DNA of 64,000 bases from Armatimonadota bacterium (GTDB lineage Bacteria > Armatimonadota > UBA5829 > DSUL01): contig AP024674.1 of assembly GCA_025998755.1 (NCBI GenBank), positions 1,478,162 through 1,542,161 on the forward strand. Reading direction: 5' to 3'. Under the pieces are notes generated by a model. It worked only from the letters and a program-made list of their open reading frames with translations. It was not told the origin of the DNA and did not search any database. Shown piece by piece: positions 7,967 through 30,734 of the stretch. Positions within the stretch are counted from its first letter, which is position 1, and every line of letters begins with the position of its first letter. Both the position numbers and the translations under genes were made by a program.

Positions 7967-9277
7967 TCAGGATGTCCCGGCGTTGCACCAGTTCCGGATG
8001 ACCTCTGCGACTTCCACCATCGCTACCTGGCTGGATCCCGCCTCGTCCATCATCGTGAAGACCACTTTCTTCCCGTCGGGACTGAACACCGGGTGGGGAT
8101 GAAAAGGATGCTTCTCGCCTCGCGGGAACTCGGCGATCACCCTGTTTTCGCCCGTCGCCACGTTTGCAAGCGTGAGGGTGCACACGGGGTTTCCATGCTC
8201 ATCCCGGCCCGCCGGAAGCCAGTCATCCGCTACCACCCATTTCTCATCCGGGCTGATGGAGATATGATTCGGGAACCGCGCACTGGAGAAGATCTCTTGC
8301 TGCTCACCGGTCTGAAGATCCACCCGGCAGACGGCCGAATGGTCGCGCTTCCAGGAGACGAAGTAGATGTGGCTGCCTTGCGGCCCGAAGACCTCGTGGG
8401 TGTGGGTCTCGTTCTCCCAGTCCTGGCGCGCAGGCGCGCGGAGCTCGCTGCCATCCACCCGGATGGTCCAGATGCGCTTGGCCACCGCACCGGGATACTG
8501 TGGCTTTCCACGCCGTTCGTGGGCGAAGCCGATTAGCTCAAGATCCATCGGATTCAACTGCACATGGTTGACGTAGACGAATCCTTGCCGGTCCGGCTGC
8601 CACGGTCCCATCCTCCGGCGAGGGAAAGCGTATACCAGCCGCGGTTCTCCCTGCGGCCGGAGGGTGCCGGTGTCAACGTCCACCGTGAAGATGGCATAGA
8701 CCCCGCCCGCGAACCAGCGGTTATCCTTCAACGGGAAGGATGCATAATAGCAGACCCTCCTGCCATCGCGGGAGATGGACGGTGGAGCGCCAATGGCACC
8801 CTCATCCTCCCGCCATAAGAGCTCCTTTCGACCGCTCGCAGGGTCCATCAGATAGAGATTGTGTCCCTCGTCGTCGAAATGGACGATGAGACCGGACGCA
8901 GAGGCGTCGGCGTGGAACCAGTCATCCGGCAGCACTTCACGCTCGCCGGATTCGAACTTCGGAGGCATCCGGTAGGCCGCCAGATCTTTCGACTGCCCCG
9001 TTCGAACATCCACCTGCCGCAGACTCATCAAACGCCGCCTTTGCCCCCCATCCTCTGCCTCGGAGACCTGCTCGTAGTAAACGGCGGCTCCATCCGGGCT
9101 CCAGGTGCGGCAGGTAGGGTAAAAATGTGTCTTCGGGCCGGAGCCAGAGGTGAGGACGTGGATGGGCAACCCGTACTTCCCGTCAGTCCTCCGCATCCCC
9201 TCCTCCTCCGCGGCGCCAATGGCGCACGCCGCTAGAACCCCTGTCAGAATCATCAGCCAGACGACAATCATTTCCAT
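7967..9277 (-). CDS. Oligogalacturonate lyase-like (PL22-type) beta-propeller, probable exported protein
   Basis: A 436-residue protein of repeated WSPDG, SISRDGRR, SISPDEKW and VFSPDGKKVVFT blades, typical of a TolB/WD40-like propeller. Conserved His residues match the PL22 arrangement, in which several His and a Gln hold Mn: HTH at 292-294, H338 in NHISIS, and HPH at 393-395. PL22 enzymes cleave unsaturated digalacturonate. The N-terminus has a hydrophobic segment ending LAAC, which fits a lipobox (Cys near residue 18) or an ordinary signal peptide; known PL22 enzymes are often cytoplasmic, so an exported form is notable. It lies 15 bases after a GH20 gene on the same strand, so they probably form one glycan-degradation operon. 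Two ATGs (9277, 9271) are possible starts. Confidence 0.82.
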   Translation of the reverse strand: MEMIVVWLMILTGVLAACAIGAAEEEGMRRTDGKYGLPIHVLTSGSGPKTHFYPTCRTWSPDGAAVYYEQVSEAEDGGQRRRLMSLRQVDVRTGQSKDLAAYRMPPKFESGEREVLPDDWFHADASASGLIVHFDDEGHNLYLMDPASGRKELLWREDEGAIGAPPSISRDGRRVCYYASFPLKDNRWFAGGVYAIFTVDVDTGTLRPQGEPRLVYAFPRRRMGPWQPDRQGFVYVNHVQLNPMDLELIGFAHERRGKPQYPGAVAKRIWTIRVDGSELRAPARQDWENETHTHEVFGPQGSHIYFVSWKRDHSAVCRVDLQTGEQQEIFSSARFPNHISISPDEKWVVADDWLPAGRDEHGNPVCTLTLANVATGENRVIAEFPRGEKHPFHPHPVFSPDGKKVVFTMMDEAGSSQVAMVEVAEVIRNWCNAGTS

Positions 9278-9292
9278 CTTCTCGACAAAAAC

Positions 9293-10819
9293 TTAAGGCT
9301 TTCTGACACCGGATGCGATATCCTCGAACCAGTCTGCGTCCTTCAGCCAGATGCCATCCCAGCACGGAGGGTCCACCTCGTCGGCAGCCGGATCCGCGGC
9401 GTCGCGAAGGCGGGAAAGATGCCAGCGCACCCGCTCCAGTTGCCGGTCCGGATCCACCGGCCCGGACGGGACATTCCACCCGAAATCCGCGGCGGTCAGG
9501 AAGTCCGGAAGCCAGTCGTCGGTGGAGTTTCCGCTCCACTGGACCGCCAGTAGCCCAATGACATTTTCAGCATCCCTCGCCCACTGCGCCCAACTGAGCA
9601 GGTTCAGCACTGCCTCCCGGTAGCCGGACTTGGAATCCGGCACGTGCAGGCTGCCGGAGCCTCCGGCAAGGAATACAGGCTCCTTGGAACTCCCGCTCAG
9701 CAGCGTCGGCGCGTCCTGCTTCAACAGGTGAGGATTGTCCGGGGTGTTCGGATCCCCGTCCCCGTAGTTCCACAGGCATCGGACTACCCTACCCTTCCAC
9801 CGGAGGGGAGTAGGAGGAGCGTCTCCCCAGACGATCGGCGTCACCTGCCGCCCGACCTTTTCCGAGAGATCATCCATCAGGTGCAAAAGCCCTTTCAGAT
9901 GCCTCTCCTGTTCCTCCGGCGGAAGGCGCACCTCGTCCAAACCCAGGTGGAGCATAGGCTCGGGGAGCAGAGGAAGCCACTCCTCGTATATGGAGCGGAG
10001 AAGCTCATACGAACGCGGGTCGCCCGGCGCGAGATGGGACTTCCGGATGTGGCGGACGAAGCCGTAGTCGTGCTCGAAGCCGCCACCCACCAGGTCCGGA
10101 TAGTGACGTCCCTTGGCCGAGGAGTGTCCCAGCGACTCCACCTCCGGGACCACGGCGATTCCGAACCGGCGGGCATACTCGACCACATCCGCCACATCGT
10201 CCATTGTGAGGGCGTACCGGTTCTCTGAGCCAAGCGGATTGGAGCGGTAGCGCACGGCGTTCAGCTCGTCGTCGCCCTCGCGGAAGATCAGGCAGTTCAA
10301 GTGGAAGGCGGAGCAGATGCGGATGATGCGCTTGATTTTGGGTAGGCTGTTGGGGGAGCGCCCGCTGTCTATCATAAAAGCACGCCACCGGAAGCGTGGC
10401 CAGTCGCGGATGGTGACGCACGGAAGCAAGACCGCACCGTTTTCTCTCTGCGCCAGCTGGCGCAGGGTCATCGCTGCGTGGAGAATGCCGCCGGATGTCC
10501 GGGCCCACGCTGCGGCGCCGGAAGGCGTTACCGTCAGGACGAAACCCTCCGGGTACCCTGGAAGGTCGCAGGGCATCCGGGACGGCGGGTCTGGCCCGAG
10601 ATGGATCGAGCATAAACCGTTTTCTGGGCCGTGGGGAGTATGGACGAGCGGCTGCAGACCGAACTCCTCCGCCAGGAGATCCGCCAACCGTGATGCCGCG
10701 AACCGGGAATCATCACCCAAGGGGGTGACAGCCGGGTCCGGCGCGAGGCGCAGGCGGCCCTCGTGGTGGACCAGAATCTGTGGCTGCGGCAACAGGTTTT
10801 CCAGCACGGTTTGGCTCAC
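9293..10819 (-). CDS. Glycoside hydrolase family 20 (beta-N-acetylhexosaminidase-like)
   Basis: A 508-residue protein. The N-terminal ~130 residues look like the GH20b alpha/beta domain. The (beta/alpha)8 barrel follows from WPRFRWRAFMIDSGRSPN, and LHLGLDEV supplies the adjacent catalytic pair D295-E296 used in substrate-assisted catalysis. The family removes terminal GlcNAc or GalNAc. No signal peptide is present in this frame. The first codon is GTG with an in-frame TGA three codons upstream and no recognisable ribosome-binding site. A short, well-initiated open frame ends 11 bases upstream (see 10831-10944), so translation may depend on coupling to it. The gene precedes the PL22-like propeller. 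Confidence 0.87.
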   Translation of the reverse strand: MSQTVLENLLPQPQILVHHEGRLRLAPDPAVTPLGDDSRFAASRLADLLAEEFGLQPLVHTPHGPENGLCSIHLGPDPPSRMPCDLPGYPEGFVLTVTPSGAAAWARTSGGILHAAMTLRQLAQRENGAVLLPCVTIRDWPRFRWRAFMIDSGRSPNSLPKIKRIIRICSAFHLNCLIFREGDDELNAVRYRSNPLGSENRYALTMDDVADVVEYARRFGIAVVPEVESLGHSSAKGRHYPDLVGGGFEHDYGFVRHIRKSHLAPGDPRSYELLRSIYEEWLPLLPEPMLHLGLDEVRLPPEEQERHLKGLLHLMDDLSEKVGRQVTPIVWGDAPPTPLRWKGRVVRCLWNYGDGDPNTPDNPHLLKQDAPTLLSGSSKEPVFLAGGSGSLHVPDSKSGYREAVLNLLSWAQWARDAENVIGLLAVQWSGNSTDDWLPDFLTAADFGWNVPSGPVDPDRQLERVRWHLSRLRDAADPAADEVDPPCWDGIWLKDADWFEDIASGVRKP

Positions 10820-23354: not shown

Positions 23355-23786
23355 ATGTCGCACGTCGTCAGCATCCGGATGAAGGAGAACCAGGTAGAGC
23401 GCCTGCGCAGGCTGTCCCGCAGGCTCGGCCGCACACCCAGTGAAGTGGGAGCGTTGTTGATCGAGGAGGCGCTCCGGCAGTCCGAATTCGCCTTCATTGA
23501 GTTCCGCGACTCTCCGGCTGGCAGACAGGCCTATGTCAAAGGGACAGCGCTGGCTGTCTGGGAAGTGGCGCTGGTGGCTGAGAGCTTTCAGGACGATCCT
23601 GAGAAGACTGCCCATCACCTGGGATGGCCCGTTCATCTCGTCCGGGCTGCCCTGGCTTACAGGGACGCTTACCCGGAAGAGATCCGGGTGGCCATCGAGG
23701 ACAACCAATCCTACTCACCGGCCGCACTACAACGGCTGTTGCCACAGACTGAAACAGTGCCCCCCTGCCCTCAGGAGTCTGAGTGA
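23355..23786 (+). CDS. Antitoxin: ribbon-helix-helix plus DUF433-like winged helix
   Basis: A 143-residue protein. Residues 1-40 read as a ribbon-helix-helix DNA-binding unit (VVSIRMKENQVERLRRLS, then TPSEVGALLIEEALR). Residues about 47-115 resemble DUF433 (VKGTALAVWEVALV, then HHLGWPVHLVRAALAY), a domain common in antitoxins paired with PIN-like toxins. It is followed directly by such a toxin gene. It probably neutralises the toxin and represses the operon through the inverted repeat upstream. The ATG has AGGGA very close to it, so initiation looks weak. Confidence 0.8.
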   Translation: MSHVVSIRMKENQVERLRRLSRRLGRTPSEVGALLIEEALRQSEFAFIEFRDSPAGRQAYVKGTALAVWEVALVAESFQDDPEKTAHHLGWPVHLVRAALAYRDAYPEEIRVAIEDNQSYSPAALQRLLPQTETVPPCPQESE

Positions 23787-24164
23787 TTGCTCGTCTTTCT
23801 TCTGGATGAGCACATCTCACGCAGAGTGGCGAAGGAACTCCGCGCGAGCTGCGGGGAAGCAGTCTGCGTGTGCCTGCGGGAATGGCAGGACGGTGCGCTG
23901 CTGGGAGCAGACGACTCGACCCTGCTGAGCGAGGCCGCGGAAGCGGGCCTGACACTTGTGACCTATGACGTGCGGACTCTGGCACCCCTGCTGAAGACGT
24001 GGATGGAGTCCGGCCTGCACTTCGCGGGCGTGGTCTTCGTGGACACCCGCACGGTAGCACCCGCAGATATCGGCTTGCTGGTCTGTGCGCTGGAGCGTCT
24101 GTGGCGGGCGCGTTCCGGCGAGGATTGGACGGATCGCGTTATCTTCCTGACATCCTGGCGTTGA
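23787..24164 (+). CDS. PIN-like toxin (DUF5615 type)
   Basis: A 125-residue protein. Acidic residues expected of a PIN/Mut7-C-like nuclease are visible: FLLDEHIS (D8, E9), DDSTLLSEA around residue 40-48, TYDVRTLAPL (D around 58) and VVFVDTR. The start is a TTG immediately after the antitoxin TGA, with AGGAG 9 bases upstream, so the genes are tightly coupled. Family members are presumed RNases, but activity has rarely been tested for this group. Confidence 0.8.
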   Translation: MLVFLLDEHISRRVAKELRASCGEAVCVCLREWQDGALLGADDSTLLSEAAEAGLTLVTYDVRTLAPLLKTWMESGLHFAGVVFVDTRTVAPADIGLLVCALERLWRARSGEDWTDRVIFLTSWR

Positions 24165-24294: not shown

Positions 24295-25410
24295 ATGGAC
24301 AGACGACGATTCCTGGCGGGGGCGGCCGCCGCGGGAGCGGCCGCCGGCGCGGCCCGGCTTCTGGGCGGGAGGGCCGAGGCATCTCTGCGTATGGATCCGA
24401 ATTTCAAGGTGAAAGTGAAGGAACCGCAAAAGGAACGGGAAAAGGCGAAGCGACAGGGCGACAGCCGTCCGCTCCTCTACGGGGCGGGGATGATCTGGGC
24501 ATTCTGGCTGAACCGGCCGCGCAGCTACGATCTGAAGCAGATGGACAAGCTGGTGGATCTGGGCGCCACCCTCACCAGCGCAACTTTCGACTGGGTGGAC
24601 CTGGAGAAGGAACCGGGCAAGTTCGACTGGAGCTACCCGGACCACGCCGTGGAGGCGGCGCAGCAGCGGGGACTCCGGCAGTTCGGATACATCGGCAACA
24701 CCGCCGCCTGGGCTCTGCCGCCGGGAGTGACGAAGGACAAGAGTTACCGCTTCCCACCGGACGACCGCTTCCGAAAGGAGTTCGAGAACTACTGCCGCAG
24801 CGTGGCGAAACGATACCGGGGACGCGTGAATATGTTCCAGTTCTGGAACGAGCCGAACGGCTGCAGCTGGGTAAACGACGGCTGCGCGAACGGCCACGAG
24901 CAGGAGCTCTACACCAAGTGGCTGAAGATCGCCTACAACGCCCTGAAAGAGGGCAACCCGGACTGCATTGTGGCGGCAGGCGCCCTGGATTATAACGAAG
25001 GCGTGACCGAGGGCTACAAGTACATCGAGGGGATGTACCGCTACGGGGCGAAGGGACATTTCGACGCCATCTCTATCCATCCGTATCACCCGGAAGGACT
25101 GCACTGGAAAGCGGTGGAGGATACTTACCGGGTGATGAAGGAGCACGGGGACGGGGACAAGGAGGTCTGGCTGACGGAGTACGGCTGGGTGGACTCCAAG
25201 GGCGAGGACGCGGCGCGAAAGCTGCGTGAGGTGCTGACGCGGTTGGCATCGCCGGAATACCGGTATGTGACGCTTGCGAATTACCTTTGCGTCACCGACC
25301 TGCCCATCGAGAATACCGAGCAGTACGGCCTGTGCGACCGCGAGTTGAACGAGCGTCCCATCGCCAAGGCGTTCCGCGAGCTGGCGAAAGGAGCCCGCGA
25401 GCGGCTGTGA
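24295..25410 (+). CDS. TAT-exported clan GH-A glycoside hydrolase (GH39-like)
   Basis: A 371-residue protein. I start at the ATG 7 bases after GGAGG, giving DRRRFLAGAAAAGAAAGAA, a clear twin-arginine signal. The barrel has FQFWNEPNG (acid/base E186) and VWLTEYGW (nucleophile E295), the spacing expected for GH39 and GH5-type clan A retaining enzymes. A Lys/Glu-rich stretch (about 38-58) links signal and barrel. The substrate is unknown, perhaps a xyloside by family. The GxGYxYP and ADP-ribosylglycohydrolase genes follow after a terminator-like hairpin, so they may be a separate but functionally related unit. Confidence 0.87.
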   Translation: MDRRRFLAGAAAAGAAAGAARLLGGRAEASLRMDPNFKVKVKEPQKEREKAKRQGDSRPLLYGAGMIWAFWLNRPRSYDLKQMDKLVDLGATLTSATFDWVDLEKEPGKFDWSYPDHAVEAAQQRGLRQFGYIGNTAAWALPPGVTKDKSYRFPPDDRFRKEFENYCRSVAKRYRGRVNMFQFWNEPNGCSWVNDGCANGHEQELYTKWLKIAYNALKEGNPDCIVAAGALDYNEGVTEGYKYIEGMYRYGAKGHFDAISIHPYHPEGLHWKAVEDTYRVMKEHGDGDKEVWLTEYGWVDSKGEDAARKLREVLTRLASPEYRYVTLANYLCVTDLPIENTEQYGLCDRELNERPIAKAFRELAKGARERL

Positions 25411-25439
25411 TTCGTTCCCGATCACACTGAGACTGTCTG

Positions 25440-25476
25440 ATCGCCCCGGTCCGCAAAGGGCGGGCCGGGGCGATTT
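25440..25476 (+). terminator. Terminator-like hairpin after the GH-A gene
   Basis: Perfect 10-bp stem (25440-25449 with 25465-25474), 15-base loop and only TTG after it. Termination is probably partial. Confidence 0.55.
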
Positions 25477-25518: not shown

Positions 25519-27180
25519 ATGGAAAAACGGCACGCAGTCTGGTTCAATGTGCATTCGCTGATAGACCCCTCGATCAAGGGCGGAGAGATAACCTACGGAC
25601 AGGAGGATATGGAGGAGGGACACGGCAAGCTGGCCGACAACGGCTGGAAAAACGTTGTCACCATGCTCGCCCTCCAAGGGCTGGTCAACCGCAAAGGCCC
25701 CCGCCTGATGTACGACACTCAGTTCTGGAACTGGAGGCCCGCGGACCGGACCTGGCGCCAGATCTACACGGAGCGGAAGGGCTTCGAGTTCGAGGAGCTG
25801 CCGGATATGTGGAGCGTCATCGAACGCTTCCGGGATGATTTCCGCGGCCTTGCCGTTCACGACCCGGAGATCGAGCAGTCTCTCTACGTTGCCTGTATGC
25901 ATGCTGCGTTGGAGGATCTGCTGCCCGTGTCGCCCGCCGTGGCCGAGGAGCTCCGCGCCCGGTTTCCCGGAATCCCTACGATGCACGATTTCCAGGGGCG
26001 ATGGAAGGACGAGTGGGAGCCGCTGGACTACGCCATCGAGGAGCTGATGCCGCGCTGCCAGCCCGGGATGGGATACAGCGTGGATCGTCTCTGGAGCGGG
26101 ATGTCCATTGACACGCTGGACCTGGCGGTGGCGCGCAAAGCATTCATTTACCGGTGTTCAACGAACCCCAAGCACCGAAAGGACAACGCCCGGATCTGGC
26201 GCATCCACGAGGGCATCGGTCCTAACGCGGGCATCTATGGCTGGGGCGAGCCCGAGGACCGCTACTGCGAGATGGCTTCGCTGAACTCCAACTACATCAT
26301 GTGCGCCGAAGCTCCCAACCTCAGCTTCCACGCTCAGATCGCCTCGGACCGGAAATCCTGGAAGCAGAAGTCCCACCGGGATCTCTCCACGCTGAAGCTG
26401 GAAGACAAATTCTATGTGGCCTTCCTGACGACGGAAGGCGACGCGATGAAAATCCACACCGTGTTCCATGGCGGCGCCTGGCACGATCCGAACCGCGGGA
26501 AAGTGCCCATCAACTGGGGATTCCAGCCACGGATGCTGGACATCGCCTCCGGCATGGCGGAGTATTATTACGACACCATGACGGAGAACGACTACTTCTT
26601 CTGCGGGTGCTCGGGCGCGGGCTACACCTATCCCAACTGGATGCCGGAGCCGGAGCGCTTCATGCGGGAGAGCGACGACTATATGCGCCGCGCGGATCTG
26701 CAGGTGATGGACTGCTGGATCCATTTCAGCCGTCCGGTCTACGAGATGTATGCACGGCTCAGCCCGCACACGCAGGCGTTCGTGATGCCGGCCGGCCCCA
26801 TCCAGGTGAAGATGACGGAGGCCGGAACGCCGGTGATCCTGCGCCACGGAAGCCTTCACTACTACCCGAACGGGCGGACGGCCGAGGAGATGGCAGAGTC
26901 CATCCGTGAGGCGGCAGCCCAACTGGAGTGCCGCCCGGCATTCCTGACCGTGTTTGCAGTTCCCGACGCGAACGAGAACCGGACCTCCCAGGGCGGCTTT
27001 TCTCCAACAGACTACGTGCGTGTGTCAGAGCTGCTTCCGGAGGAGGATTTCAAGATCGTGACGCTGGAGGAGATGGCCTGGGCGGCGAAGGAATTCCTCA
27101 GGGAACATCCGGAGTGGGCTAACCGGCCGATGACACGAGTCCCCAGGCGGAACATCGGCGTAAACGTTACGGAGGAATAG
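25519..27180 (+). CDS. GxGYxYP family protein
   Basis: A 553-residue protein. The name-giving motif is GAGYTYP at 366-372, in CGCSGAGYTYPNW. The N-terminal part has VVTMLALQGLVNRKGPRLMYD at about 46-66, matching the companion N-terminal domain of this family. No signal peptide is seen, so it is probably cytoplasmic. The family is suspected to act on carbohydrates, but no reaction is established as far as I know. Start is ATG 25519, 8 bases after AGAGG. The stop is followed 2 bases later by the GTG of an ADP-ribosylglycohydrolase gene, whose GGAGG lies within this gene's last codons, so the two are an operon. Confidence 0.88.
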   Translation: MEKRHAVWFNVHSLIDPSIKGGEITYGQEDMEEGHGKLADNGWKNVVTMLALQGLVNRKGPRLMYDTQFWNWRPADRTWRQIYTERKGFEFEELPDMWSVIERFRDDFRGLAVHDPEIEQSLYVACMHAALEDLLPVSPAVAEELRARFPGIPTMHDFQGRWKDEWEPLDYAIEELMPRCQPGMGYSVDRLWSGMSIDTLDLAVARKAFIYRCSTNPKHRKDNARIWRIHEGIGPNAGIYGWGEPEDRYCEMASLNSNYIMCAEAPNLSFHAQIASDRKSWKQKSHRDLSTLKLEDKFYVAFLTTEGDAMKIHTVFHGGAWHDPNRGKVPINWGFQPRMLDIASGMAEYYYDTMTENDYFFCGCSGAGYTYPNWMPEPERFMRESDDYMRRADLQVMDCWIHFSRPVYEMYARLSPHTQAFVMPAGPIQVKMTEAGTPVILRHGSLHYYPNGRTAEEMAESIREAAAQLECRPAFLTVFAVPDANENRTSQGGFSPTDYVRVSELLPEEDFKIVTLEEMAWAAKEFLREHPEWANRPMTRVPRRNIGVNVTEE

Positions 27181-27182
27181 AA

Positions 27183-28541
27183 GTGGATAGACGAGGCTAC
27201 CTGTATGGGCTCCTGAAATATGAGGCCCGCCAGCGGATCGAGGAAGGGTGCCCCAGGGAGGACATCCAGAGCATCCTGGACCGGGTCTCACAGGCTTCCG
27301 GGGAGGAGGATCTGCTGGAGGCGTTCGCGCAGATGGCTGCGGCTCAGGTTGACCCCGGTTTTCCCTTCCACGAGCCCACCGCCTGGGAGGATCTGACCGC
27401 AGTCAGCCCGGGGTATGCCGCGCCCTCCGGGACGGACCCGCAGGGCATCCGCGATCTGGAAGACCGGATGAAGGGGGCATGGTTTGGGCGGTGCGCCGGG
27501 TGTGCGCTTGGCAAGCCGCTGGAACGCCCTGTGTATATGAACTGGCACGGCGATACACCCGGCTGGCAGGGCGTGCGCATCTATCTGAAGGCAGCTGAGG
27601 CGTGGCCGCTGGACTGGTATGTGCCCCAGATTGACGACGTGGGAGACTACGGCGTCCGCTGCCCGGCCAGCACGCGGGGCAAAATCGCCTTTATGGAGAC
27701 GGACGACGACATCCGCTACACCGTGCTGGGTCTGACCATACTGGAGCGCCACGGAGCGCTGTTTACCACGGCAGATGTAGCCCGCGCATGGTGGAACACC
27801 CTTCCGATAGGTCAGACTTTTACGGCCGAGCGCCAGGCGTACCGCAATCTGACTGACGTCATGGACAGCGAAGAGATCGAGGTCAACCTGGACTACATCC
27901 GCGGGCATCTGAACCCCTTCCGGGAATGGATCGGGGCGCAGATACGGGCTGACGGCTGGGCCTACGGCGCTGCCGGACGGCCGGCGGTTGCCGCAGAGTT
28001 CGCCTACCGCGACGCCGCGCTCTCGCATGTGAAGAACGGCATCTATGGCGAGATGCTCTTCGCCGCTGCCATTGCCGCGGCGCTTGACGCGGCCTCCCCG
28101 CTGGATGCGCTGCGGGAGGGTCTGCGATACATCCCGTCGCGCAGCCGGCTGGCCCGCGACGTGGCGGAGGCCATCGAGATGGGCCTGTCCATTCCGGATC
28201 TGGACGAGCTGCACGATGCTCTCTGGAAGAAATGGGGGCACTATGACGGGGTGCACACCAACAACAATGCGGCGCTGGTGGCGGCCGCCATCGCCTGGGG
28301 CGGCGACGATTTCGAGAAGACCATTGTCTGTGCCGTGACCGGCGGCTGGGACACGGACTGCAACGGAGCTACAGCCGGGTCACTGTGGGGAGCCGCTTAC
28401 GGGTACCGCGCACTGCCGGAGAAGTGGACCGCTCCACTCAACGACACGCTCTACGCCGCTATTCCGGGCTTCCATCCCATCGCGATCTCCGAATGCGCAA
28501 GGCGCAGCGCCGCCGTGGCGCTGAAGATCGCGGAGGGCTGA
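27183..28541 (+). CDS. ADP-ribosylglycohydrolase (DraG/ARH) family protein
   Basis: A 452-residue protein starting at GTG, 7 bases after GGAGG. An N-terminal ~95-residue helical extension precedes GAWFGRCAGCALGKPLE, the usual opening of the family. Metal-binding acidic motifs are present: ETDDDIRY (172-178) and GGWDTDCNGATAGSLWGAA (D390, D392), which coordinate two Mg ions in DraG-type enzymes. The loop between them is longer than in DraG. No nitrogenase or ADP-ribosyltransferase gene is near. The pairing with GxGYxYP suggests a substrate other than ADP-ribosyl protein, for example a nucleoside or sugar glycoside, which is inference. A strong terminator follows. Confidence 0.9.
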   Translation: MDRRGYLYGLLKYEARQRIEEGCPREDIQSILDRVSQASGEEDLLEAFAQMAAAQVDPGFPFHEPTAWEDLTAVSPGYAAPSGTDPQGIRDLEDRMKGAWFGRCAGCALGKPLERPVYMNWHGDTPGWQGVRIYLKAAEAWPLDWYVPQIDDVGDYGVRCPASTRGKIAFMETDDDIRYTVLGLTILERHGALFTTADVARAWWNTLPIGQTFTAERQAYRNLTDVMDSEEIEVNLDYIRGHLNPFREWIGAQIRADGWAYGAAGRPAVAAEFAYRDAALSHVKNGIYGEMLFAAAIAAALDAASPLDALREGLRYIPSRSRLARDVAEAIEMGLSIPDLDELHDALWKKWGHYDGVHTNNNAALVAAAIAWGGDDFEKTIVCAVTGGWDTDCNGATAGSLWGAAYGYRALPEKWTAPLNDTLYAAIPGFHPIAISECARRSAAVALKIAEG

Positions 28542-28558
28542 CCGGGACTACACGCAAA

Positions 28559-28594
28559 GGGGCCCGGGAGGCAACTCCTCCCGGGCCCCTTTTT
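28559..28594 (+). terminator. Rho-independent terminator of the GxGYxYP operon
   Basis: Perfect 13-bp stem (28559-28571 with 28577-28589), loop CAACT, then TTTTT. On the minus strand the stem is followed by TTT, so it may also stop transcripts of the converging gene at 28618. Confidence 0.92.
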
Positions 28595-28617: not shown

Positions 28618-30558
28618 CTACCGGCTCTGAGGAATGCCGCGGGCTACCCGCCGCAGGGCGAAGTCGTCGAAATCCGCCTTAAACGGATAGTCGTCCGGGA
28701 GGATGGTGCACCCTCTCAGCCAGATGCTGATGGAACCGGACTTCGGGCGGATGGGCGGGCTCAGCCAGCTATTCCAGACCCCCGTGAGGGACGGCATGCA
28801 CTCCCAGACGATGGTGGGAGCCTGCGGATCGTCCGTCTGCCCCGTCGGATCCCATCCCACATACTGCTGATGCTTCATATCCACCGGCCATGAGCAGCGG
28901 ACTTTGCCTGAGATGCGGTACGTGTGAGAGCGGTCCAGCCCCTCAACGCGCTGCACGAAACCGCCGTCCGCTGTCCGGTTGCCGCCTCCGTCCGGGTTCT
29001 TGCCGTAAGGACCACCTCCGAGGACGCGCAGAATACGGTTGCGCGGCTCGTTTGGATCGGCCAGATAGAACTGGCGTGTCTGAGGGTCTATATCGAACGC
29101 CGTCCACCCCTGCGGGCGTCCCGGGTCGTCCGGACCGGAAGAGACCGTGCCCACACTCATCGTCCCGTTCTGCAGGAGATTCGGGCCTTCGACAGCCTTG
29201 TCCCAGTCCGCAGGAACGGAGAGGTATTCCAGCACCTGCATGTCCAGGTCGAAATCCACCGGCCGGCCCTCCTTGTAAGCCGTGCCCCGGGGATAGTCAT
29301 CCTGCGGAGCCTTCTTATACGGGTTGAAGCCGGGACGCTCGTCGTTCTGCTGAAGCTTGAAGTTGAGCCACCCCCGCAGCGATTCTACACTCTCCATCGT
29401 GTCGAACTCGACGGTGTAGGTCTTTCCGGGGGTCAACAGGACCTCTCCGGGCGAATACGCCGTCCCGAACGTTCCCCAGGAAGCATCGCCGGTGTATGTG
29501 GCGTTGCCCGTGGCCGCCTTTACCACACCCACCACCGGTCCCCCGGGCCCGCCTTCGCGCACCCGCACGAGCACACGCTGCCGATTCATGGTGGGCTGGA
29601 CGCCGGAGGCCGCAGCATACAGGATGACTCCGGCCAGGCTCCGCCCCCGGGCCACGTAGCTCTGGCTCCACTTCCGGGAGAATCCGGCCAGCTCGATATA
29701 CTCCTTATGGACGCGTTTGTTATACGGGATGACCAGCCCGTCGGAATCCGAGCTGACTCCCACCCACATCGCCGAATCCAGCCAGGAGTTACCATCCGGG
29801 GCGACGCGATACAGCCTGGTCCCGGAAACCGGTTCCTTGGAAAGAAACATCTGGAAGGTGTTCCCGCGGTTACGGGGACGGATGTAGACAGCATAGGTCT
29901 CACCCGGCTTCGTGGGCACCTCGCCGCTGTCCCATCCAACGGAGTACGAGTAGTTCTTCGGTCCCCCGCAGTCCACGTTCAGCGCCACAGCCACCGGCCC
30001 GACGCGCGGCCAGGTATCCGGCGTTCCTGGCCCTTTGCGGTGAATGGACACCAGCATATCCTGCCCGGCCGGGCCCTCGCCGTCTATGCCATCATGCACC
30101 GGCTTGAACCAGACGCCGGTGACCGACGTGCCGTCCGCGACGAACGTCTGGAAATACCCCCCTGCGCGTTTGGGATCCCAGCTGGAATCGTCAAAGACAC
30201 CCAGCGTATAGCGTGCGATCAGCGGGAAATCCAGAACGTCGCCTGGCGAGGTATAGACATTGGTGAGCAGGATGGGACGCATGGCGATGGCGGGGGTGGA
30301 GTAAAGGATGGTATAGCGTCCCGCGGGGCCGCTCATATAGCTCCATCCAGCCGGCTCCATCTCCCACGTGCGGGTGCCCAGAGACTGGTTCTGTGGTCCA
30401 TCCAGAGCTGCGAACCCGCGGATGGCCGTCTGGGGGATCAGGGATTCCGATCCCGGCAGGCGCGGCGCCCAGAGCCGGCCTTTCAGTTCCACCTGGGCCT
30501 TGGCCGGCAGGGCCGCCGTCAGGCACAGGCAGACAAGCAAAGAAATGATAGTCCTCAT
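28618..30558 (-). CDS. Modular secreted protein with C-terminal jelly-roll-like module
   Basis: A 646-residue protein. Start ATG 30558 lies after GGAGG and opens a signal peptide (RTIISLLVCLCLTAALPAKA). The long central part is beta-rich with repeated extracellular-type segments (KPGETYAVYIRPR, TPGKTYTVEFDTM), as in other adhesive or carbohydrate-binding proteins. The C-terminal ~165 residues begin LLQNGTMSVG and contain VGWDPTGQTDDPQAPTIVW (567-585) and FKADFDDFALRR. This module matches those in the proteins at 17643 and 19978. No catalytic residues are evident. It is separated from the ARH operon by a shared terminator. Confidence 0.8.
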   Translation of the reverse strand: MRTIISLLVCLCLTAALPAKAQVELKGRLWAPRLPGSESLIPQTAIRGFAALDGPQNQSLGTRTWEMEPAGWSYMSGPAGRYTILYSTPAIAMRPILLTNVYTSPGDVLDFPLIARYTLGVFDDSSWDPKRAGGYFQTFVADGTSVTGVWFKPVHDGIDGEGPAGQDMLVSIHRKGPGTPDTWPRVGPVAVALNVDCGGPKNYSYSVGWDSGEVPTKPGETYAVYIRPRNRGNTFQMFLSKEPVSGTRLYRVAPDGNSWLDSAMWVGVSSDSDGLVIPYNKRVHKEYIELAGFSRKWSQSYVARGRSLAGVILYAAASGVQPTMNRQRVLVRVREGGPGGPVVGVVKAATGNATYTGDASWGTFGTAYSPGEVLLTPGKTYTVEFDTMESVESLRGWLNFKLQQNDERPGFNPYKKAPQDDYPRGTAYKEGRPVDFDLDMQVLEYLSVPADWDKAVEGPNLLQNGTMSVGTVSSGPDDPGRPQGWTAFDIDPQTRQFYLADPNEPRNRILRVLGGGPYGKNPDGGGNRTADGGFVQRVEGLDRSHTYRISGKVRCSWPVDMKHQQYVGWDPTGQTDDPQAPTIVWECMPSLTGVWNSWLSPPIRPKSGSISIWLRGCTILPDDYPFKADFDDFALRRVARGIPQSR

Positions 30559-30734
30559 AGATCCTCCTCCGGGACGGGCGGCCGCAGGCTTCCCGTCCCG
30601 CAGATGTTCGAGCGATCTCGCAGGCTTTGGCCGCCAGAGTCCGGCCCAGACAGTTCGTTGCAAGACGCTGGCGGCCACATGGGGAGAGTTCGGAGGTCAT
30701 TCGTGAGGAACCTTCCTGGATTCCGCAGAAATCC

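Follow-up and report, generated by a model that had tools for sequence, protein, structure and literature searches.

The window analysed here is a 64,000-nt stretch of a genome that consists of a 3.29-Mb single contig and whose close relatives are Armatimonadetes MAGs. It carries a GxGYxYP gene followed directly by a gene for a protein of the ADP-ribosylglycohydrolase (ARH) fold (Table 1). The best start of the GxGYxYP gene is the listed ATG, preceded by AGAGGA, and only 2 nt separate its stop from the ARH GTG, whose Shine-Dalgarno sequence GGAGGA lies inside the final GxGYxYP codons, 6 nt ahead of the start. This layout bears out the coupled pair proposed in a preliminary description of this DNA, which had also noted a strong terminator after the pair and the absence of signal peptides; both were found, the former as a hairpin with a T-run that is common to ARH and the convergent gene at 28618–30678, and the latter in that neither protein has a hydrophobic N-terminus. 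A further hairpin, with a perfect stem and a weak T-run, precedes GxGYxYP and is possibly a terminator or an attenuator, so that GxGYxYP and ARH may constitute a separate transcription unit. No sigma-70 promoter was found in a consensus scan, which also missed both long hairpins.

Table 1. Features of the GxGYxYP–ARH locus (window coordinates).
Feature	Position	Strand	Remarks
TAT-exported clan-A glycoside hydrolase gene, upstream partner	24295..25410	+	Pfam and TAT matches; weak GH10/GH42/Glyco_hydro_cc
16-bp perfect hairpin, weak T-run, between TAT glycosidase and GxGYxYP genes	25439..25475	+	z −4.9; possible terminator or attenuator
GxGYxYP CDS	25519..27180	+	553 aa, ATG start, stop TAG 27178–27180
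PF03747 ARH-fold CDS	27183..28541	+	452 aa, GTG start
12-residue insertion RPVYMNWHGDTP, ARH residues 115–126	27525..27560	+	immediately after Glu-flap glutamate E114
16-bp hairpin with T-run, intrinsic terminator	28556..28592	+	folding −37.3 kcal/mol, z −4.8

The first protein matched the Pfam family GxGYxYP_C (PF14323) at 4e-33, with 115.5 bits against a curated cut-off of 27, and has GAGYTYP as its version of the family motif; the N and second domains also scored above their Pfam cut-offs, and the third fell slightly under. Its AlphaFold model (pLDDT 89) found 3sgg/BT_2193 as the best PDB match in Foldseek, over the full length (E 1.5e-24, TM 0.71–0.77, structural identity 15%). The first beta strand of the model begins at residue 4, which leaves no space for a signal peptide. 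Signal-less forms were also seen in the orthologues of the sister genus and of a Phycisphaerae bin, and five other tested relatives have a hydrophobic N-terminus; unlike most members examined in the phylum, the window protein has neither a signal peptide nor a C-terminal accessory domain. With BT_2193 (PF14323, PF16216) it shares the domain set, the whole-length fold, a carbohydrate gene context and acidic cleft residues, whereas it differs in the coupled ARH gene and in one residue of the acidic triad. Specifically, Asp333 of the BT_2193 triad Glu272/Asp331/Asp333 corresponds to D308, Asp331 is replaced by E306, and the counterpart of Glu272 is ambiguous between E246 and D247, giving E246 (or D247), E306 and D308 as the candidate triad. 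The positions E246, E306 and D308 are almost invariant. Scans for GxGYxYP used a closer alignment in place of a broad one that was too divergent. GxGYxYP proteins are found in alpha-mannan PULs and in GH92/GH29 loci, and no glycoside hydrolase activity of the family was reported in the literature found (PMC4071793).

It could be argued that GxGYxYP is non-hydrolytic, either a subunit for binding or scaffolding or a deacetylase-like barrel, with ARH as the sole glycosidase of a two-subunit complex. The barrel fold does resemble polysaccharide deacetylases, one triad Asp is replaced by Glu in the clade of the window protein, and tight coupling would fit stoichiometric subunits. Nevertheless, the near invariance of the three acidic positions and the mostly stand-alone, secreted nature of the relatives make this arrangement, whose complex is itself hypothetical, highly improbable.

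The second protein is a clear PF03747 (ADP_ribosyl_GH) member (2e-43, 149.7 bits against a cut-off of 26.2) with an N-terminal extension of about 90 aa. Like DraG, ARH3 and Tri1 it carries the E...DD...DxD metal frame, and the residues concerned (E114, D175, D176, D390 and D392) are invariant across 12 homologues. The frame is flanked in DraG and ARH3 by Thr residues that serve as metal ligands. Here these Thr positions are Asp or Asn and Cys, the first being Asp and the last C393 in the window protein, and Ser stands at the Cys393 position in the closest plasmid homologues. The scores for the DraG equivalog (TIGR02662, 31.1 bits against a cut-off of 337) and for the Tri1 ADP-ribosylarginine hydrolase (NF041672, 27.1 against 490) both lie below threshold, and the N-terminal extension, the 12-residue Glu-flap insertion and the sugar context set the protein further apart from these enzymes. 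Among ARHs with a readable loop, the insertion was present in all four of the window's family and in none of the others, two paralogues of the same genome among them; nor does the nearest ARH of the genome carrying a 67% identical GxGYxYP orthologue have it. The four ARHs of the family form a single clade in the tree, with a support of 100/100 and a long stem. Judged from sequence, the co-occurrence of insertion and pairing suggests that the substrate pocket may have become specialised together with the pairing. The structure model of ARH was poor (pLDDT 56, four sequences), and no conclusion was drawn from it. A single-protein scan found no ARH in viral contigs.

Homologues of this ARH with 28–39% identity are located on plasmids of Mycolicibacterium, Deinococcus and rhizobia, that is, in three phyla, where they sit in operons with LacI and a sugar ABC transporter, accompanied by ribokinase in Mycolicibacterium and Deinococcus. 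The proteins of the latter two genera are 33–39% identical to the window ARH over 97% of the protein; they differ in having Ser for Cys393, no GxGYxYP beside them and an ABC importer of their own, and the Mycolicibacterium ARH lacks the 12-residue insertion. Within Armatimonadota, a sugar-binding protein and a BPD_transp_2 permease are encoded near another homologue (L095). By family and gene context, the window ARH also resembles E. coli YegU, an ARH-family protein encoded with a putative nucleoside transporter and a sugar kinase and controlled by an ADP-glucose-sensing regulator (PMC10819704); yegTUV has transporter and kinase partners, whereas the window pair has neither nearby.

These contexts bear on whether ARH is a conventional hydrolase of ADP-ribosyl-protein or ADP-ribose compounds that is co-transcribed with a glycosidase gene by chance. 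Its PF03747 membership fits such a role, and DraG, ARH3, Tri1 and archaeal/Thermus ARHs are the nearest solved structures by sequence. However, the two equivalog scores fall far under their cut-offs, Asp/Asn and Cys occupy the metal-binding Thr positions, homologues are located in sugar-import operons, and the genome yielded neither DarT nor, in a search run without a positive control, DraT; we therefore regard conventional activity as quite unlikely. Cytoplasmic hydrolysis of a small glycoside is likelier than protein de-ADP-ribosylation, based on the sugar-ABC operons, the L095 locus, YegU, the GH38 and GH106 neighbours described below and the occurrence of GxGYxYP in mannan PULs. The earlier suggestion that ARH acts on a non-protein glycoside is thus probably correct, given metal-site residues unlike those of DraG/ARH3 and homologues in sugar-import operons.

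Comparison within the Armatimonadota family found the arrangement conserved. In a congener (G218), ARH is 95% identical and its start overlaps the GxGYxYP stop as ATGA. The sister genus (G220) has TAT glycosidase, GxGYxYP, GH38 and ARH in that order, joined by overlaps or a 5-nt gap; GH106 and DUF6259 genes in the opposite orientation come next. The TAT glycosidase of G220 lies directly upstream of GxGYxYP, overlaps its start, and is 68–72% identical to its syntenic orthologue in the window; this enzyme is therefore a third constant partner of GxGYxYP and ARH, which the preliminary description had overlooked, and the sugar context that it did recognise extends to a larger glycosidase cluster. 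Similarity of the G220 GxGYxYP to the window protein ends at residue 520, where the GH38 reading frame starts, which suggests that GH38 may be a later insertion. In another member (G219), ARH lies at a contig edge, with GH106 behind it and then a 687-aa gene whose position and size resemble those of the DUF6259 gene; a GxGYxYP orthologue was not detected in this assembly, which stops just upstream of ARH. GH106 comes after ARH in both G219 and G220, and the window genome has its GH106 orthologue elsewhere and five GH38 genes, none adjacent to the pair. Because the same gene order recurs in two other family genomes at 65–95% protein identity despite different flanking genes, the pair is more than a chance association.

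Outside the family the pairing is rare. Relatives of GxGYxYP occur in 110 and relatives of ARH in 223 of 291 Armatimonadota genomes. An ARH was detected within 5 kb of six of the 78 distinct GxGYxYP genes that have 5 kb or more of flanking sequence; none was detected at the other 72, a number that is an upper bound on ARH-less loci since the ARH profiles may miss remote members. The six comprise the window and G220, both of this family, G206, G207, G208 and another site in the window genome; in G206 and G207 an ARH of a different subgroup is convergent to GxGYxYP, and in G208 the two genes are 2.1 kb apart. A crude calculation, taking some 10 genes as neighbours and about 4 ARH per 3,500 or so genes, gives an expectation of approximately one locus; the enrichment is weak, and sugar-gene clustering could account for the excess. 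A general GxGYxYP–ARH rule is hence ruled out. The preliminary description had named an occurrence "only here" as evidence against its proposal, and half of this is seen: the pairing is missing from nearly every other GxGYxYP locus but conserved within one Armatimonadota family, as part of the larger glycosidase cluster. In other words, the pairing is real but narrow and belongs to a glycoside-utilisation cluster of known kind, not to a new system. No literature joining the two families was found, and the GxGYxYP paper is silent on ADP-ribosyl (PMC4071793).

The wider ARH subfamily is present without GxGYxYP, and around the 67% identical GxGYxYP of the Phycisphaerae bin there is neither an ARH, out to about 10 kb, nor a recognised glycosidase in the scanned neighbourhood, so neither protein strictly requires its partner. 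That signal-less GxGYxYP (L110 9887–11659) is the sole close one in 198 genomes of Phycisphaerae, probably reflecting horizontal transfer or a binning error. At the second window-genome locus (about 2.72 Mb), an ARH paralogue (L088 8106–9104) whose DxD metal motif has been lost (GGWSHATTAAAG) is convergent with a 1211-aa GxGYxYP (L088 9980–13615) at a distance of 876 bp. Another Armatimonadota genome has four nearly gapless tandem GxGYxYP genes (L165 3050–12449), and tandem GxGYxYP pairs occur at L153, L154 and L169.

The scarcity of ARH at other GxGYxYP loci, together with the GH38 that intervenes in the sister genus, would also agree with family-level synteny of two sugar genes that drifted together and have no common function. 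This is unlikely, however, as the trio is retained at 65–72% identity amid different flanks, the starts are closely coupled and the ARH insertion is specific to the family.

We therefore favour, as the reading with the better odds, a cytoplasmic module of two translationally coupled genes within a small glycoside-degradation operon, in which the ARH-fold enzyme would cleave a small glycoside and not an ADP-ribosylated protein. The TAT-exported glycosidase may trim a plant or microbial glycan outside the cytoplasm, and the product would be imported and then split by GxGYxYP, a predicted glycoside hydrolase with its acidic triad between the N domain and the barrel, assisted in the sister genus by the GH38 alpha-mannosidase-like enzyme; the metal-dependent ARH-fold enzyme would cut what remains, a furanosyl or some other unusual N- or O-glycoside. 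Our best guess for the ARH substrate is a riboside, because of the ribokinase in the plasmid ARH operons. Counted against this scheme are the lack of a transporter, kinase or regulator adjoining the pair in the window and the hairpin that parts the TAT gene from it. A more specific version, possible but doubtful, is that the ARH clade marked by the Glu-flap insertion and the Cys-containing metal site constitutes an unrecognised family of true glycoside hydrolases, acting sequentially with the cytoplasmic GxGYxYP on one unusual glycoside. If the scheme is true, two large families could be assigned together, GxGYxYP having no known activity and ARH being usually annotated from fold alone. Should ARH act on a small glycoside, GxGYxYP would gain mannose- or rhamnose-containing glycans as a first lead to its substrate, and the label "ADP-ribosylglycohydrolase" would mislead for many proteins of environmental bacteria.

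Elsewhere in the window, oligogalacturonate-lyase-like and GH20 genes lie in tandem at 7967–10819 as additional glycan genes. A two-gene unit at 23355–24164, encoding a 143-aa protein that matches no Pfam family and a 125-aa DUF5615/PIN-like protein, is laid out like a toxin-antitoxin pair.
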